13,238 bases of DNA, from NCBI GenBank assembly GCA_017621955.1, contig JAGASB010000250.1, positions 1 through 13,238 of the forward strand, in the 5' to 3' direction. Shown here in pieces: positions 4,301 to 12,501 of the stretch. The translations under genes and the position numbers were made by a program. Every line of letters starts with the position of its first letter. Within the stretch, counting starts at the first letter, position 1. This stretch comes from Clostridia bacterium (GTDB taxonomy: Bacteria; Bacillota_A; Clostridia; Christensenellales; Borkfalkiaceae). The notes below the pieces were generated by a model. That model made no database searches, was not told the DNA's origin, and saw only the letters and a program-made list of their open reading frames with translations.

Positions 4301-4402
4301 TAGCAATGCGAGTTGTGTTAATTCACAGAGAGTAGGGAAAGTGCGGTGAAAATCCGTCGCAACAGTCATTACGGTTAAAGTCCGATAGCCTACCCGTTGC
4401 TA
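4301..4402 (+). promoter_or_regulatory. Cobalamin (B12) riboswitch aptamer
   Basis: TAGCAATG (4301-4308) pairs with CGTTGCTA (4395-4402) as the closing P1 stem, and GTAGG (4332-4336) pairs with CCTAC (4389-4393). Between them lie the class hallmarks: GGGAAAGTGCGGTGAAAATCC followed by GTCGC, then ACAGTC, and the B12-box form AGTCCGATAGCCTACC (4379-4394). It lies in the leader of a lipoprotein and ECF S-component pair, as expected for corrinoid-controlled uptake genes. The aptamer is compact. The expression platform follows immediately and is listed separately. Confidence 0.93.
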
Positions 4403-5593: not shown

Positions 5594-6910
5594 GTGAGAT
5601 TTATAGCAATCTACGACCAAATGGATACGGAAACAAACCCTGACGATGATATTATCCCGTTTAAGAATATCCTAAACGAAATGTATGCAAAGGATTGTAG
5701 CAAAAAAGTTCGTGCAGTAGTAAGAGCAAAAGGTAACGCAGGAAAACATATATCCTATCTTCCGCCTTTGGGCTATATGAAAGACCCCGAAGATAAGGAA
5801 AAATGGATTGTAGAGCATATCGGCGCTTCTATCGTTAAAGAGATATTTGCCCTTTGCCTTAAAGGATACGGACCTACGCAAATCGCAAGAATTTTAACCG
5901 AACGTGGAATTGATACACCCGTAGTTCACTTTCATAAGTACAAGCTACCAACGGCGTTGAAATTAAGAGAAGATTCCGATGTTTGGAACGCAAAAACGAT
6001 AGCAGGAATACTTGAAAATATGGAGTATTTAGGACACACGGTTAATTTTAGGTACTACAAAAAGTCGTATAAATCAAAGAAGAAATATGAAAATCCAAAA
6101 GATAAATGGGTAATCTTTGAAAATACACAAGAAGCAATCATAGACCAAGAAACTTTTGATACTGTCCAAAGAATCCGAGATGGACGAAGGAGACCTACTG
6201 AAATGGGAGAAATGAATATCCTATCAGGAATGTTCTATTGCGCCGACTGTGGAGAAAAAATGTATCTTTGTCGTTGTACTACTATGAATCAAAAAGAATA
6301 CTTTAACTGTTCTACCTATCGCAAAAAAAAGAAGAAATATTGCACGTCCCACCAAATAACGGCGCACGCCGCTATGGCTCTAATAAAAAACGACATACAA
6401 TATACCATTAAGTTTGCGACTGAGAATAAAGAAACTTTTATGAGTATTCTCAAAGAACAAGCAAAAGCGAAAAGTAAACGTGAGTTAGAATCGTTTATCG
6501 ATGGTAAAGAGCAAGCAGAAAAGCGTATAAAAGCACTTGATAAAATTATCCAAAACCTTTATGAAGATAAGGTTGTAGGAAAAATCTCCGAAGAGCGCTA
6601 TATGAAAATGAGCGATAACTATGAAGCCGAACAAAAGGCGTTGACCGAAAGGCTTAACTACTTAAAGGCGGAAATAGAAAAAGCCAAAACCCAATATGAC
6701 AACATAAATAAGTTTATGGCTATCGTAAAAAGATATAGTGATTTTGAAGAGATAACACCTGAAATCTTACGTGCTTTCGTGGACAAGGTTATTATACACG
6801 AAAAAGTAAAGGTTGATGGACGTTACGTTCACACAATAGAAATTATTTATAACTTTGTCGAAGCCATAGATTTACCTGACTTCGATGCACATTTAAGAGA
6901 AGAAAACTAA
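5594..6910 (+). pseudogene. Large serine recombinase (TndX-like) missing its catalytic N-terminus
   Basis: The 438-codon frame begins at GTG 5594 inside what is normally the end of the resolvase domain (VRFIAIYDQMDTE, then PFKNILNEMYAKDCSKKVRAV at 22-42). An in-frame TAA at 5582 shows that the usual 100 or more upstream residues, which carry the catalytic Ser and active-site Arg residues, are absent. What remains is in order: the recombinase domain (about 50-160); a zinc ribbon with C216, C219, C239 and C250; a long coiled coil (about 285-378); and a DUF4368-like C-terminus ending HTIEIIYNFVEAIDLP. Intact relatives are about 530-560 aa and excise and integrate conjugative or mobilizable elements. 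The frame has no internal stops and could yield a DNA-binding protein without strand-cleavage activity, but I read it as a truncated gene left after loss of an element. No ribosome site precedes the GTG. Confidence 0.85.
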
Positions 6911-9039: not shown

Positions 9040-9079
9040 CTCATTTGAAATTGACTTTATTTTTAAAAAGCCCTATAAT
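9040..9079 (+). promoter_or_regulatory. Promoter of structured RNA copy 1
   Basis: TTGACT (9051-9056), a 17-nt spacer and a consensus TATAAT (9074-9079). The predicted start near 9084-9087 coincides with the first paired bases of the RNA. The -35 region reads CTCATT-N4-ATTGAC, a degenerate form of the GTCAAT-N4-ATTGAC operator found at hipBA and copy 2 (four of six left-half bases match). Confidence 0.75.
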
Positions 9080-9083
9080 ATAA

Positions 9084-9307
9084 GCATACCACATTTTATT
9101 TATTATCATCAATACTCAAAATAGCGGTTTTTTGCCGTGAGAACACAACTTATCAAAAAGAATCACAAGGGGTATAATTTTGGTGGAATTATACCTTATC
9201 CGTTTACAATTTCCTTTGTGGTTTAGTTGTGGATGATAAATGAAGTGTGGTAGCTTACGAGAGGGTATATTCTGCGGATGCCGTCTCGAAAGGGGCGGCA
9301 TTCTTTT
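9084..9307 (+). ncRNA. Structured noncoding RNA, copy 1 (unrecognised family)
   Basis: There is no credible reading frame, but strong structure. P1 is 21 uninterrupted pairs (9087-9107 with 9232-9252, three G-U). A side hairpin follows (CTCA/TGAG and CGG/CCG, 9115-9141). P2 is CACAACT/AGTTGTG (9144-9150 with 9225-9231) and stacks directly on P1, making a three-way junction. P3 is CACAAGG with CCTTTGTG (9164-9170, 9213-9220). The apical hairpin P4 is 9171-9181 with 9185-9195, closed by a GGT loop. A single-stranded TTATCCGTTTA lies on the 3' side (9196-9206). After P1 come TTACGAGA and TATATTCT, shared with copy 2. It ends with a GAAA-capped terminator (9278-9301) and T-rich tail. It matches no RNA family I can name; 6S RNA was considered and does not fit well. 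Confidence 0.78.
9278..9307 (+). terminator. Terminator of RNA copy 1
   Basis: ATGCCGTCTC (9278-9287) pairs with GGGGCGGCAT (9292-9301) around a GAAA tetraloop, followed by TCTTTT. TCTCG at 9284-9288 can alternatively pair with the upstream CGAGA (9258-9262). Confidence 0.85.
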
Positions 9308-9336
9308 ATTGTTGATAATAAATTTGTTTGAGAGCA

Positions 9337-9376
9337 GTCAATTCAAATTGACATTTTATAGCAAAGCGGTTATAAT
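9337..9376 (+). promoter_or_regulatory. Promoter of RNA copy 2 with a HipB-like operator
   Basis: Consensus TTGACA (9348-9353), a 17-nt spacer and consensus TATAAT (9371-9376). The perfect palindrome GTCAATT-CA-AATTGAC (9337-9352) covers the -35 box. Its core GTCAAT-N4-ATTGAC is identical in half-sites, spacing and position relative to -35 to the hipBA operator at 7160-7175, which suggests a common repressor. Confidence 0.82.
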
Positions 9377-9381
9377 AGATA

Positions 9382-9588
9382 TGCTAAACTCAAAGACCTA
9401 TGTATGTAGGCAATCTCTTATTTGAATATTGATGCGAGTTACGGATATAATTCTGGTAGGATTATATCTCTTATCGTGTTTATCAAATCCGTGACTTTAT
9501 GTTCATTGGGAGATTGTAAACGAGTTTAGCAGCTTTACGAGAAAGGTATATTCTACGGGTGCCGTTCTCGAAAGAGGACGGCACTTTT
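9382..9588 (+). ncRNA. Structured noncoding RNA, copy 2 (paralogue of copy 1)
   Basis: Same architecture as copy 1 with mostly different bases in the helices. P1 GCTAAACTC/GAGTTTAGC (9383-9391, 9522-9530); side hairpin CCTA/TAGG (9397-9410); P2 CAATCTC/GAGATTG (9411-9417, 9510-9516); an extra helix TGAATA/TGTTCA (9423-9428, 9500-9505); P3 10 bp (9437-9446, 9487-9496); apical P4 TATAATTCT-GGT-AGGATTATA (about 9446-9466). The 3'-side asymmetric segment TTATCGTGTTTA (9471-9482) and the post-P1 elements TTACGAGA (9535-9542) and TATATTCT (9547-9554) match copy 1. The terminator has 11 bp and a GAAA loop. Helices kept while their sequence changes, plus a dedicated promoter and terminator, make a functional RNA very likely. 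The next gene is convergent, so this is not a leader. Confidence 0.82.
9559..9588 (+). terminator. Terminator of RNA copy 2
   Basis: GTGCCGTTCTC (9559-9569) pairs with GAGGACGGCAC (9574-9584) over 11 bp with a GAAA tetraloop, followed by TTTT. TTCTCG (9565-9570) can alternatively pair with CGAGAA (9538-9543). Readthrough would produce antisense RNA to the convergent XRE gene. Confidence 0.88.
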
Positions 9589-9592
9589 GTAT

Positions 9593-9626
9593 AAAGAAAA
9601 ACCGTCAAACAAAAGTGTTTAACGGT
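9593..9626 (-). terminator. Terminator of the minus-strand XRE gene, overlapping its stop
   Basis: On the minus strand AACCGTTAAACA (9626-9615) pairs with TGTTTGACGGTT (9611-9600 region) with one mismatch, followed by TTTTTCTTTA. The stem includes the last codons and stop of the gene. It lies back to back with the copy 2 terminator, so both convergent transcripts end within about 40 bases. Confidence 0.6.
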
Positions 9627-10065
9627 TGTCGCTTCTACCAAGTAAATAGTCCACGGATACATCGAAGTAATCACAAAGAATATCCAGTATTTCAAACGAA
9701 GGTAATTGATTTTTATTAAGCCATCTTGAAATATAGCTTTTATCGAAGTGACATTCTTGACTCACGCGGTAATGAGATTCTTCGCGCTCAGAGCATAATA
9801 AACGAAAGCGTTCACTGAAATTGCTTGGATTGGATGAACTCTCAAAATCATTAATATCTGTTTCGCCTAATAAGTAAGGAATAGAAACAATAAAGTAATC
9901 CGCTAATTTGGCGACGGTTCTGGGCTTGGGAACAATCCCGTAATTTAATGCGTTAGCCAATGAACGGTAGTCAACGCCCATTTTGCGATGAAGTTCAGAC
10001 CTTTTTGTTTCTTCTTCATCAATTAAGTCTTGTAATCGTTTTTGAAATTCAGTTGAAATCGCCAT
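9619..10065 (-). CDS. Double-HTH XRE-family transcriptional regulator
   Basis: A 148-aa cytoplasmic protein with two consecutive helix-turn-helix units that look like an internal duplication. The first is about 5-67, ending DYFIVSIPYLLGETD. The second is about 82-145 (FSERFRLLCSEREESHYRVSQECHFDKSYISRWLNKNQ split across its helices), ending DYFDVSVDYLLGRSD. The start at 10065 is preceded by a good minus-strand ribosome site, AAAGGGAG, seven bases upstream; an upstream in-frame ATG at 10101 lacks one. It is convergent with the tandem RNAs and divergent from the SLOG operon, so either could be its target. The AT-rich upstream gap contains TTATGCTAATGTATAAGC, with interleaved short inverted repeats, as a possible operator. 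Function beyond DNA binding cannot be assigned. Confidence 0.82.
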   Translation of the reverse strand: MAISTEFQKRLQDLIDEEETKRSELHRKMGVDYRSLANALNYGIVPKPRTVAKLADYFIVSIPYLLGETDINDFESSSNPSNFSERFRLLCSEREESHYRVSQECHFDKSYISRWLNKNQLPSFEILDILCDYFDVSVDYLLGRSDNR

Positions 10066-10200
10066 AATGCATCTCCCTTTAGTATGGTGTGTTAAAGCCA
10101 AAAGATACCATCTGGGAACATTATATAAAATTTTTTATCCGAAATAGTTATGCTAATGTATAAGCACACCTATTATATATAAAACAAGGAATGCGTTTAT

Positions 10201-10263: not shown

Positions 10264-10269
10264 GATAGC

Positions 10270-10310
10270 AGGAGTCAGGGGAAAACTTTTCATGTTTTTC
10301 TCTGGCTCCT
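10270..10310 (+). other. Strong 16-bp leader hairpin upstream of the SLOG gene
   Basis: AGGAGTCAGGGGAAAA (10270-10285) pairs with TTTTTCTCTGGCTCCT (10295-10310) with three G-U pairs and a 9-nt loop. Only nine bases separate it from the ribosome site GTGAGGAG (10319-10326). There is no downstream T-tract, so a simple terminator is unlikely. It could be an attenuator-like or translation-controlling structure, or a processing site. Confidence 0.6.
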
Positions 10311-10329
10311 TATGTATAGTGAGGAGATA

Positions 10330-10911
10330 ATGGAAGAAAAGGTTTGTTCTTTTTTTGGGCACCGAAAAATAGATGATTCGGTAGCGTTACGACAACGGAT
10401 ACAAAGCGAGATCGTTAATTTGATTGAGAACTATGGCGTTAACGTTTTTCTATTTGGCAGTAGAAGTGATTTTGATTCGCTTTGCCACGCGATTGTGACA
10501 GAGCTTAAAGAGAAATACCCGCATATACAAAGGCGGGCGTATACCTGTCGCAGTGAAACCTGCACTTTGGAAAAAGAACGTGCATATTGGGAAGGAATAT
10601 ATTCGTATTTTGAAAAACGCCCGGTTACGCTACTTGGAGTGGAAGAAGAGGTAGAGCATAAGAATAAATATACCGCAGGGAAAGCGCAATACGTTGAACG
10701 CAATCAAGCGATGATTAACGATAGCGATTTTTGCGTGTTTTATTATAATCCATATTATCAACCGCCGAGACGGAAATACTCCAAACGCTCGGTTGGGGAT
10801 TATCAACCTAAAAGTGGGACGCAGCTTGCTTTTGATTATGCCAATCAAAGGAAGCGCGGAGGAAAAGACTTAAGAATTATTAACGTTTATGAGGAAGAAA
10901 ATGAAAATTAA
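10330..10911 (+). CDS. SLOG-family (DUF1273/YpsA-like) predicted nucleotide-ligand-binding protein
   Basis: A 193-aa protein with the SLOG Rossmann-like signatures: CSFFGHRKI at 6-14; FLFGSRSDFD at 40-49; AQYVERNQAMINDSDF at 119-134; and SGTQLAFDYA at 162-171. SLOG domains are proposed to bind nucleotide-derived ligands, and some act as sensors in conflict systems or in phage and mobile elements. I choose ATG 10330, giving MEEKVCSFFGHR, because GAGGAG sits just before it (spacing three bases, rather short) and it matches the usual family N-terminus; ATG 10312 has no ribosome site. Its stop overlaps the next start by 11 bases, so it is the first gene of a three-gene operon with a surface protein and a Cys-repeat protein. 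Ligand and role are unknown. Confidence 0.82.
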   Translation: MEEKVCSFFGHRKIDDSVALRQRIQSEIVNLIENYGVNVFLFGSRSDFDSLCHAIVTELKEKYPHIQRRAYTCRSETCTLEKERAYWEGIYSYFEKRPVTLLGVEEEVEHKNKYTAGKAQYVERNQAMINDSDFCVFYYNPYYQPPRRKYSKRSVGDYQPKSGTQLAFDYANQRKRGGKDLRIINVYEEENEN

Positions 10912-12151
10912 GAAGAGAATAACGGCCATTATAGCTGGGATATTTTTAGCCGGTTCTTTCGGTACTCTCAATACACAAATTGCCAGCGCTGGCCAAGACG
11001 ATTTTATTATCCCTTATTATAACGGATATGTGGATGCGAGCGCAAGCATTGTATCCCAAAGTACCGTAATTGATATGAGTGGATATAACGGCGCAGGTGG
11101 AGTCGGTTTTGACGCAGGGATAATTGCTGCGACGTCGGAATATCAATTGAACGTGGAGCAAGATGGCGCTATTTTTTACTTACCCTATGCAGGCGTTGTT
11201 AAAGATTTGAATGAGATAAACGTGAAGGTGAACGGCTCTACCGTTACCCCCAAACGCATCTACGGGGATATGCCGTACTATTATGCTGGTTTAGGCGGCG
11301 ATAAGGATACGATTTTGGAAGCAATTTCCAGCGCGAAGCCATCGGTTTTGGAAGGAACGGGGAAACTTTACACCTTTGAAACATCCGTAGCGCCATTAGA
11401 GTATTCCTTTGCAAAGACAGAAACGCAAACAGTGTTGCATAGCGGGTTAAATTGGAGTAGCTACGGGGCAGACGGATATTCCATTAAGTACAATACGAAC
11501 ACGAACGAAGAATATCCTTATAAACTGTTCGTGACGGACGGGGAATTACAAAACTTTACATCGAACGTGGGATATGAAATTACGGATATTTCTTATAAAG
11601 ATTTTCTTGACTTCCACGTAGATGAGCTTATCGCTGAAATGGGGGAGGAATATAGGGAAATATTTTATAGTAATTTCAATCGGCAATTAGACGGGCAAGT
11701 GAAGGAAATGTATGATGTGTTTTATCATTACTCGGATTACGTCTTTGCGTTATTAAAAATTTCTTTGCCGGTTGGTACGGTGTCGATTGACGTCGGTACA
11801 AAAATAAAGCCAATGGTAAATGGGTTGTATAAACCGTATATTTACACGATAAGAACCGTGTCGGCATATCCACAAACCTGTTCGTATACCTTGACAATAA
11901 TACCATCAGAAAAACTTCCGTATTTGGTAGAACAGAATATAGGATTGGATGATTTCTCGTACGCGTCAAGTAAGCAAATCGAGGACGGCTACTATATAAT
12001 GAGTTCTGACAAGAAGCCCGATTACGCTCTTGATAATAACTCTAACAAAAATGATAAAGCGTGGATTTTATATTTAGGGCTCGGTTTAGGTGGAGTAATT
12101 TTGTTGGGGGCAGGTATTTATCTATTTGTAAGCTGGAGGAAATCAAAGTAG
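10901..12151 (+). CDS. Secreted, C-terminally membrane-anchored protein of unknown function
   Basis: A 416-aa protein I do not recognise. It has a classical signal peptide (MKIKKR, hydrophobic 7-22, predicted cleavage after ASA at 30) and a C-terminal membrane span (about 387-411) followed by WRKSK. About 355 residues would lie outside the cell, with a short cytoplasmic tail. There is no LPxTG motif. The ectodomain is rich in Tyr, Ser and Asp, has a single Cys (in the segment YPQTCSYTLTI) and looks mostly beta-structured in its first half, with a helical stretch around EYREIFYSNFNRQ. ATG 10901 is chosen because GAGGAAG (10891-10897) precedes it; ATG 10889 would also be in frame. It overlaps the SLOG gene and is two bases from the Cys-repeat gene. 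A cell-surface or element-exclusion role is possible, but nothing in the sequence proves it. Confidence 0.75.
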   Translation: MKIKKRITAIIAGIFLAGSFGTLNTQIASAGQDDFIIPYYNGYVDASASIVSQSTVIDMSGYNGAGGVGFDAGIIAATSEYQLNVEQDGAIFYLPYAGVVKDLNEINVKVNGSTVTPKRIYGDMPYYYAGLGGDKDTILEAISSAKPSVLEGTGKLYTFETSVAPLEYSFAKTETQTVLHSGLNWSSYGADGYSIKYNTNTNEEYPYKLFVTDGELQNFTSNVGYEITDISYKDFLDFHVDELIAEMGEEYREIFYSNFNRQLDGQVKEMYDVFYHYSDYVFALLKISLPVGTVSIDVGTKIKPMVNGLYKPYIYTIRTVSAYPQTCSYTLTIIPSEKLPYLVEQNIGLDDFSYASSKQIEDGYYIMSSDKKPDYALDNNSNKNDKAWILYLGLGLGGVILLGAGIYLFVSWRKSK

Positions 12152-12153
12152 GG

Positions 12154-12501
12154 ATGTACATAAGAGATTGGTTTATACGATGGCTTTTTGAATATGGGGA
12201 TAGAAAAAAATATAAAGGTTTGCCGCGCGGTTGTTGGAACTGTGAGGTTTTAGGGCTTTGTCGTAGACCAAAGGAAGAAGGCTGGAAATGTTATGACGGG
12301 TGCATGCTTATCAATGCAGAACTCGCATACAAATATGAAGGCTTACCAAAGGGGTGTTGGCGATGTCAGTATTTAACAGAATGCCGCAGACCTAAAGAGG
12401 AAGGCTGGAAATGTTATAATGGTTGTAGAGTTATCAAAGAAAAGGAAGAAAAAGAAAGGAAACTTATAGAAAAGCAAGAAAAGAAAAAAACCAAGAAATA
12501 G
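12154..12501 (+). CDS. Small protein with two tandem five-cysteine modules
   Basis: A 115-aa protein, cytosolic by sequence (no signal peptide). It contains two copies of a module of about 34 aa, offset by exactly 41 residues: YKGLPRGCWNCEVLGLC and YEGLPKGCWRCQYLTEC, each followed by RRPKEEGWKCY(D/N)GC. The Cys pattern C-x2-C-x5-C-x9-C-x3-C is kept exactly (C27, 30, 36, 46, 50 and C68, 71, 77, 87, 91). This suggests a zinc- or Fe-S-binding fold. The C-terminus is a charged Lys/Glu helix (KEKEEKERKLIEKQEKKKTKK in two parts). ATG 12154 lies two bases after the preceding stop; the nearest clear ribosome site, GGAGG (12135-12139), is 14 bases away, so coupling is likely. I do not know a named family for it. 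Confidence 0.78.
   Translation: MYIRDWFIRWLFEYGDRKKYKGLPRGCWNCEVLGLCRRPKEEGWKCYDGCMLINAELAYKYEGLPKGCWRCQYLTECRRPKEEGWKCYNGCRVIKEKEEKERKLIEKQEKKKTKK

Follow-up and report, generated by a model that had tools for sequence, protein, structure and literature searches.

Tandem structured RNAs at a YpsA-like SLOG locus as members of a candidate attenuator family of 5′ leader RNAs in Clostridia

Organization of the Locus

The window, i.e., the whole stretch of 13,238 nucleotides that was analysed, is a contig of a Clostridia bacterium (JAGASB010000250.1). Two tandem intergenic RNAs, termed units A and B, are located between hipA (HipA_C match) and an XRE-type regulator gene on the opposite strand, beyond which lies a gene of the YpsA/DUF1273 SLOG family. 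The features are as follows, with the basis of each in parentheses.

9051..9079, + strand: promoter of unit A, TTGACT-17-TATAAT (promoter scan, 11/12 matches)
9086..9308, + strand: unit A structured RNA, from the inferred start to the terminator tail (fold; start inferred from the promoter)
9088..9110, + strand: unit A P1 5′ strand, partner 9232-9251 (fold; P1 covariation)
9232..9251, + strand: unit A P1 3′ strand (fold)
9144..9150, + strand: unit A P2 5′ strand CACAACT, partner AGTTGTG at 9225-9231 (fold)
9163..9170, + strand: unit A P3 5′ strand, partner 9213-9220 (fold, covariation)
9182..9195, + strand: unit A X′, apical, with the local partner Y (9171-9180) or X (9263-9275) (fold, RNAalifold, covariation)
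9254..9268, + strand: unit A antiterminator strand aT, which pairs with the terminator 5′ arm and loop (cognate pairing tests)
9263..9275, + strand: unit A X, long-range partner of X′, overlapping aT (RNAalifold, covariation)
9276..9308, + strand: unit A terminator hairpin (9276-9303) and U tail (passes terminator scan)
9348..9376, + strand: promoter of unit B, TTGACA-17-TATAAT (promoter scan, 12/12 matches)
9383..9589, + strand: unit B structured RNA (fold)
9383..9391, + strand: unit B P1 5′ strand GCTAAACTC, partner GAGTTTAGC at 9522-9530 (fold)
9411..9417, + strand: unit B P2 5′ strand CAATCTC, partner GAGATTG at 9510-9516 (fold)
9438..9446, + strand: unit B P3 5′ strand GTTACGGAT, partner ATCCGTGAC at 9487-9495 (fold)
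9455..9469, + strand: unit B X′ (RNAalifold, pairing tests)
9533..9549, + strand: unit B antiterminator strand aT (pairing tests)
9544..9556, + strand: unit B X (RNAalifold, pairing tests)
9558..9589, + strand: unit B terminator hairpin (9559-9584) and short U tail (fold; absent from the terminator scan list)
9619..10101, − strand: XRE-type regulator gene, convergent with the RNAs and divergent from the SLOG gene (ORF, domain match)
10312..10911, + strand: YpsA/DUF1273 SLOG-family gene, PF06908 (ORF, Pfam match)

The initial annotation had described each unit as a structured sequence with a near-consensus promoter of 17-nt spacing and a terminator, and this description holds. Both promoters are recovered in the promoter scan; the window as a whole has eight promoter-like sites, where 7.1 are expected (sd 2.6), an ordinary number, and those of A and B stand out by quality and placement. 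Unit A folds at -78.4 kcal/mol (z -8.04) and unit B at -75.7 kcal/mol (z -7.62), and in either case none of 200 shuffles is as stable. The terminator of unit A passes the terminator scan, whereas that of unit B folds as a hairpin but is unlisted by the scan; its tail consists of CTTTTG only. When slightly larger pieces containing A and B are plainly aligned, 135 of the 302 columns are identical, 62 of them within the last 110. Helix sequences differ between the copies with pairing retained, as had been proposed: P1 is ACCACA/TGTGGT in A and GCTAAACTC/GAGTTTAGC in B, and the P2 strands listed above are likewise found at the places given for them.

Two features had been overlooked. The conserved segments TTACGAGA and GGTATATTCT are pairing partners, belonging to the antiterminator and to the pseudoknot strand X, and the SLOG gene lies beyond the XRE gene. 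Neither a SLOG gene nor any other convincing same-strand gene is present less than 300 nt from units A and B.

Homologs in Clostridia

A weak blastn match (E 0.01) in a phage-labelled record led to a further unit, in which the elements come in the same order and the terminator reaches just to the beginning of a YpsA-like SLOG gene. An alignment scan of genome contigs for SLOG yielded 94 relatives, 80 of which were kept; in a blastn comparison of the units with these 80 loci and L017 and L018, copies were found directly upstream of SLOG in several, including one locus with two tandem RNA copies. L017 (MT835511.1) is a record labelled phage, and since its SLOG locus is close to a gene that we take to be pyruvate phosphate dikinase-like, it may be bacterial DNA.

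Covariance-model searches extended the family. Model R1 matched in 28 of 248 genomes from the order of one relative. Of 396 genomes drawn from one Clostridia order, 65 were matched by model R2, built from 52 sequences, with 141 places in total (the sum over the genome table) and a maximum of seven per genome; the R1 and R2 draws of genomes from the order overlap. Thus the search of Clostridia genomes proposed in the initial annotation does return homologs. In a draw from the class, 20 of 391 genomes matched, four of which were already in the order draw, and most of the others had one weaker match. In a draw from the phylum, for which stricter filters were used, none of 347 genomes besides the seed genome matched, and this result doubles as a specificity control. 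Three further genomes with SLOG loci had no model match. The 180 model rows include duplicates and correspond to 171 distinct RNA sequences.

Searches of mobile elements returned little. Against phages, blastn gave only the weak match described above, which is a homolog, and against plasmids 17 weak records. The pattern of the conserved 3′ segment had 16 matches in viral contigs, all chance-like on reading. One search of viral contigs for SLOG returned a single distant relative, at which the RNA is absent by eye, and a second search returned none.

Conserved Pairings and Antiterminator–Terminator Competition

In the alignment of 12 sequences, a long-range pairing of X′, the apical strand, with X, the strand in front of the terminator, emerged unprompted from RNAalifold. 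For covariation, the duplex energy of cognate strands was compared with that of non-cognate strands from different copies, using 87 non-redundant copies (of 150 with a promoter call) and 2000 shuffles. The cognate and non-cognate values are -24.2 and -10.5 for P1, -22.9 and -10.1 for P3, -15.4 and -8.7 for X–X′, -15.0 and -10.2 for aT with the terminator arm, and -9.4 and -5.6 for Y–X′ (n=87 for each), none of which was reached in 2000 shuffles, whereas two arbitrary control pairings (-5.3/-4.8 and -4.9/-5.2, n=87) stay inside the shuffle range. For P2, an earlier test on 55 copies (56 less one duplicate) gave a cognate value of -13.1 vs. -8.2 for non-cognate strands (n=41). In that test two intended controls also beat the shuffles: X with the terminator arm (p≤0.0144), and aT with X′ (p≤0.0002), the latter an unclean control because the aT stretch tested included part of X. 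A pairing of aT with the segment following X′ appeared plausible by eye and failed the cognate test (-5.62 vs. -5.70).

P1, P3 and the aT pairing lie outside the search models. X–X′ is inside them, though it had initially been recognised on a set collected with blastn, and later hits are therefore biased towards having it. In an alignment fitted to the X–X′ structure, all 13 pairs change on both sides. Covariation, the further evidence that the initial annotation had called for, is thus seen in the cognate-pairing test for P1, P3, X–X′ and aT–terminator.

The antiterminator helix takes in the first bases of X, the strands aT and X having five or six bases in common. In unit A, the antiterminator duplex is at -18.9 and the terminator hairpin at -16.2; in unit B, the respective values are -18.2 and -20.8 (duplex energies omit loop closure). 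Among the six copies listed, the aT duplex energy is near or better than that of the terminator, the two measures differing in kind. Outside the variable helices few bases are strongly conserved, namely GGUAG and the ACA/UGU of P1; a UUWUCGC-like element occurs in only 25 of 87 copies. The conserved bases of the family appear to be fewer than those of a typical metabolite pocket.

Leader Position and Downstream Genes

Position was counted for those distinct copies whose available sequence is long enough. A same-strand ORF of at least 100 aa starts within 150 nt downstream of 127 of 161 distinct copies (34 have none), compared with 16 of 80 in the mirrored control. A promoter-like site (at least 8/12) is present directly upstream of 148 of 168 distinct copies, and in 34 of 166 and 10 of 160 cases in two control stretches. 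The ORF count is a stricter recount: a looser one, which takes a same-strand gene within 300 nt, gives 144 of 180 rows (for the other 36, the next gene is absent, opposite or far), but this takes in ORFs whose start lies within the RNA and others that are short and probably spurious, among them one for window unit A. The layout of promoter, RNA, terminator and same-strand gene is therefore that of most copies in the family, and not that of A and B in the window.

Tandem copies recur, and 30 of the 32 rows from multi-copy loci have a promoter-like site; of the two others, one runs off the end of its locus and the other duplicates a row that does have the site. One locus near a contig end (L240; G154:C27) has four tandem RNA copies, each with a promoter-like site. 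At another (L050), a second copy at 5764-5914 follows the SLOG gene and leads a large protein, presumably CotH-like as judged by eye.

At several SLOG loci only 1–4 nt separate the start codon from the point where the model hit stops, so that the gene could hardly be read except past the terminator. This spacing is seen at L123, L125, L135, L142, L080 and L076, with possible ribosome-binding bases inside the terminator 3′ arm, and translation may therefore be controlled as well.

The downstream proteins fall into recurrent types. The Pfam scan covered 107 of 130 distinct ones; of the rest, 12 come from the window, from L017 and from SLOG-picked loci, and 11 were judged short or spurious. BspA-type LRR_5 was matched in 31, YpsA in 12, zinc ribbon in 12 and the Listeria-Bacteroides repeat in 11. 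For 62 upstream neighbours, taken from loci with long upstream flanks only, LRR_5 was matched once and the families listed are varied; YpsA and zinc ribbons are not among the 25 listed of 78 upstream-neighbour families. The enrichment of LRR_5 downstream over upstream is significant (Fisher p 2.7e-6). According to our own sorting rules, distinct rows that were not SLOG-picked comprise 40 lipoprotein-like, 32 SLOG, 17 zinc-ribbon and 37 other cases, and 31 with the next gene absent, opposite or far. The SLOG share downstream is 42 of 151 by the unrefined model, 44 by the iterated model and 12 of 107 by Pfam. The putative targets thus include nucleotide-binding SLOG/YpsA proteins, BspA-type leucine-rich-repeat and other lipoproteins, and zinc-ribbon membrane proteins; SLOG genes and genes for large surface proteins or lipoproteins are the usual ones. 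A restriction of the RNA to SLOG genes, considered at first, was given up.

Relation to Known RNA Classes

In a comparison of the window with Rfam 15, no family was matched at the units on the + strand even at E 10; the single match there, at chance level, is on the − strand (9558-9684, E 5.5, 16.5 bits, cut-off 100). Among 20 homolog loci searched with E up to 1, no match at the RNA reached its gathering score. Two matches below the cut-off do coincide at least in part with the RNA, on the same strand: VrrA at L124 (34.5 bits, cut-off 50, E 0.046) and tfoR at L117 (21.7 bits, cut-off 70, E 0.6). With homologs and covariation found and no Rfam family reaching its cut-off in the window or in these 20 loci, the suggestion of an unrecognised structured RNA family, made on first inspection, is borne out.

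Attenuating riboswitches and attenuator leaders combine a 5′ leader position with a structured domain, a competing antiterminator and terminator, and pseudoknot-type long-range pairing. The family resembles those that attenuate transcription in its leader layout, its aT/terminator competition and its long-range X–X′ pairing, but differs from known ones in that no Rfam family reaches its cut-off and that tandem units have a promoter-like site each. T-box leaders make a terminator/antiterminator choice in leaders of Bacillota. The family makes a similar choice, but T-box models had no match in the window and the 20 homolog loci, and the listed targets are not aminoacyl-tRNA or amino acid genes. 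6S RNA is about 200 nt long, with a long closing helix and its own promoter, all of which the family shares; unlike 6S RNA, it mostly precedes genes and has up to seven copies per genome. A 6S-like reading was set aside; 6S models had no match in the same sequences. Riboswitches for c-di-GMP control surface and adhesion genes; the family is like them in having several copies per genome and targets rich in surface proteins, and unlike them in that the family RNAs have no Rfam riboswitch match.

Exchange of RNA and XRE Regulators at SLOG Loci

The 80 SLOG loci comprise 53 with only a divergent XRE gene, 18 with only the RNA, one with both (L076), four with neither and four that are cut off upstream. 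RNA and XRE exclude each other with p 1e-12 (Fisher, 76 related loci), a value that is too good because the SLOG loci are not independent. The test left out the four loci cut off upstream. Counted as RNA were five weak calls (E 0.016-0.083) directly ahead of SLOG, and a truncated RNA at L085 (4736-4907), where by eye only the 3′ part seems left ahead of SLOG and the 5′ part is replaced by coding sequence. On a quick tree of SLOG proteins from 70 of the 80 loci and the window, the RNA/XRE label changes 9–12 times, at least four of them by starred branches; 33 of its 67 inner branches are open and L058 is badly read. Left out of the tree were L022, L026, L037 and L043, which are cut off, and L032, L035, L072, L083, L085 and L093. 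RNA and XRE thus replace each other at SLOG loci.

The window is itself a SLOG locus with both the RNA and XRE, the only other one being L076 (1 of 80), and the nearest relatives of its SLOG protein in the tree are the RNA-led L019 and L020 and the XRE-led L021. The presence of both regulators and of nearest relatives of both kinds would fit a locus caught in an exchange of regulators.

PF06908 is matched by the window SLOG gene as by the 12 scanned downstream proteins mentioned above. For the window SLOG protein, neither a PDB sequence search at E 0.01 nor PADLOC gave a match. A second hairpin (GGAGTC/GGCTCC-like) is seen by eye near the SLOG start in the window (~10268-10310) and also at L019, L023, L039 and L050.

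A Model for Transcription Attenuation

Units A and B probably belong, as two copies, to a family of 5′ leader RNAs that seems to be undescribed and whose members would work by attenuating transcription; it may be a riboswitch class. Comparison of the copies supports the helices and the rivalry of aT with the terminator. As to which way the switch works, whether a signal sets its balance, what GGUAG does and how the gene responds, we infer the following course.

Transcription would start at the foot of P1, and the RNA would fold into P1–P3 with X′ as an apical strand. The 3′ segment containing aT and X would then pair in alternative ways, either with X′, forming a pseudoknot across P1, or with the terminator 5′ arm, forming the antiterminator. 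Because of the overlap of aT with X, X–X′ pairing should free the terminator and turn the gene off. When X′ is kept in a local hairpin with Y, aT would be free to block the terminator and the gene would be on. GGUAG may be the starting point of the strand exchange, and the P1–P3 domain would read the signal, for which a small molecule or some other factor is the likeliest candidate.

For the signal, the foremost reading is that of a metabolite riboswitch proper, in which P1–P3 binds a small molecule, perhaps nucleotide-derived, that is also bound or cleaved by SLOG proteins. We regard this as a serious possibility that falls somewhat short of probable: the attenuator layout, the several copies per genome, the mixed targets including SLOG and surface proteins, and the exchange with an XRE regulator all agree with it, whereas few bases are conserved outside the variable helices and no large pocket is apparent among them. 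In its most specific form, put forward here tentatively, the family would be a new riboswitch class of gut Clostridia that responds perhaps to a nucleotide-derived signal, controls both SLOG proteins binding or processing that signal and surface adhesins, uses GGUAG for toehold-like strand exchange, and can replace a repressor protein in evolution.

In the window, A and B face the convergent XRE gene with SLOG beyond it, so that neither has an obvious target there. They may be relics of a swap of SLOG regulators, or they may act by read-through, antisense to XRE and towards SLOG. Quite possibly, if not quite as a first choice, A and B are remnants, an XRE–SLOG pair having replaced the SLOG gene that they once led, with no regulation left. 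The rarity of loci with both RNA and XRE (L076 besides the window) and the mixture of RNA-led and XRE-led nearest relatives point in this direction, but A and B keep near-perfect promoters, folded helices and the aT and X pairings.

Alternatively, a protein or another RNA rather than a metabolite might set the switch, and terminated leaders might pair with other copies, a reading that we consider rather unlikely. The small conserved sequence core and the tandem copies with a promoter-like site each would be compatible with it. Within A and within B, X/X′ pairing is at -10.0 and -9.8, and across the units at -9.8 and -11.2; as the strands pair about equally well in both arrangements, cross-talk between A and B is possible. 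Across the family, however, X and X′ of one and the same copy pair much better than strands taken from different copies, which argues for pairing in cis. That the RNAs are stand-alone small RNAs acting in trans is improbable: they have their own promoter and terminator, the window units lack a convincing same-strand gene nearby and in 36 of 180 rows the next gene is absent, opposite or far, but most copies are closely followed by a same-strand ORF, more often than in the mirrored control, the start codon follows the model hit by 1–4 nt in several SLOG loci, and LRR_5 is common downstream and not upstream, all tying the RNA to its downstream gene. A leader-peptide mechanism was judged unlikely, given that P1 opens right where transcription is inferred to start.

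Previous Reports and Implications

Literature searches combining DUF1273 or YpsA with riboswitch, and BspA with leucine-rich repeat and riboswitch, found neither combination. As supplements and subscription journals were outside these searches, the motif is possibly listed under another name. By term searches, the main texts of two surveys of new bacterial RNAs contain none of the terms SLOG, DUF1273, leucine-rich, lipoprotein and Christensenell (PMC11109978; PMC8632094). YpsA reportedly protects against oxidative stress and, when overproduced, disrupts cell division (PMC6459960).

If the attenuator model is right, a regulatory RNA family that is as yet unlisted would have more than 100 examples in gut Clostridia, often preceding genes of YpsA-like SLOG proteins and of surface proteins with a possible role in contacts with the host and with neighbours. 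The target set and the exchange of RNA and XRE would be handles for finding the signal, and could reveal the role of YpsA-like SLOG proteins.

Other Features of the Window

An ORF at 12061-12501 has two copies of a cysteine-rich motif (GLPxGCWxC...CRRPKEEGWKCY) and no Pfam match at E 0.001. The gene at 5594-6910 is serine-recombinase-like, with Recombinase, zinc-ribbon and DUF4368 domains. Serine recombinases are expected to have a resolvase catalytic domain; as this gene has no match to that domain, it is possibly cut short at its start. An AdoCbl-II (cobalamin) riboswitch above the cut-off is located at 4323-4399, followed downstream by a small ORF and by a gene whose ECF-transporter match stays below threshold.
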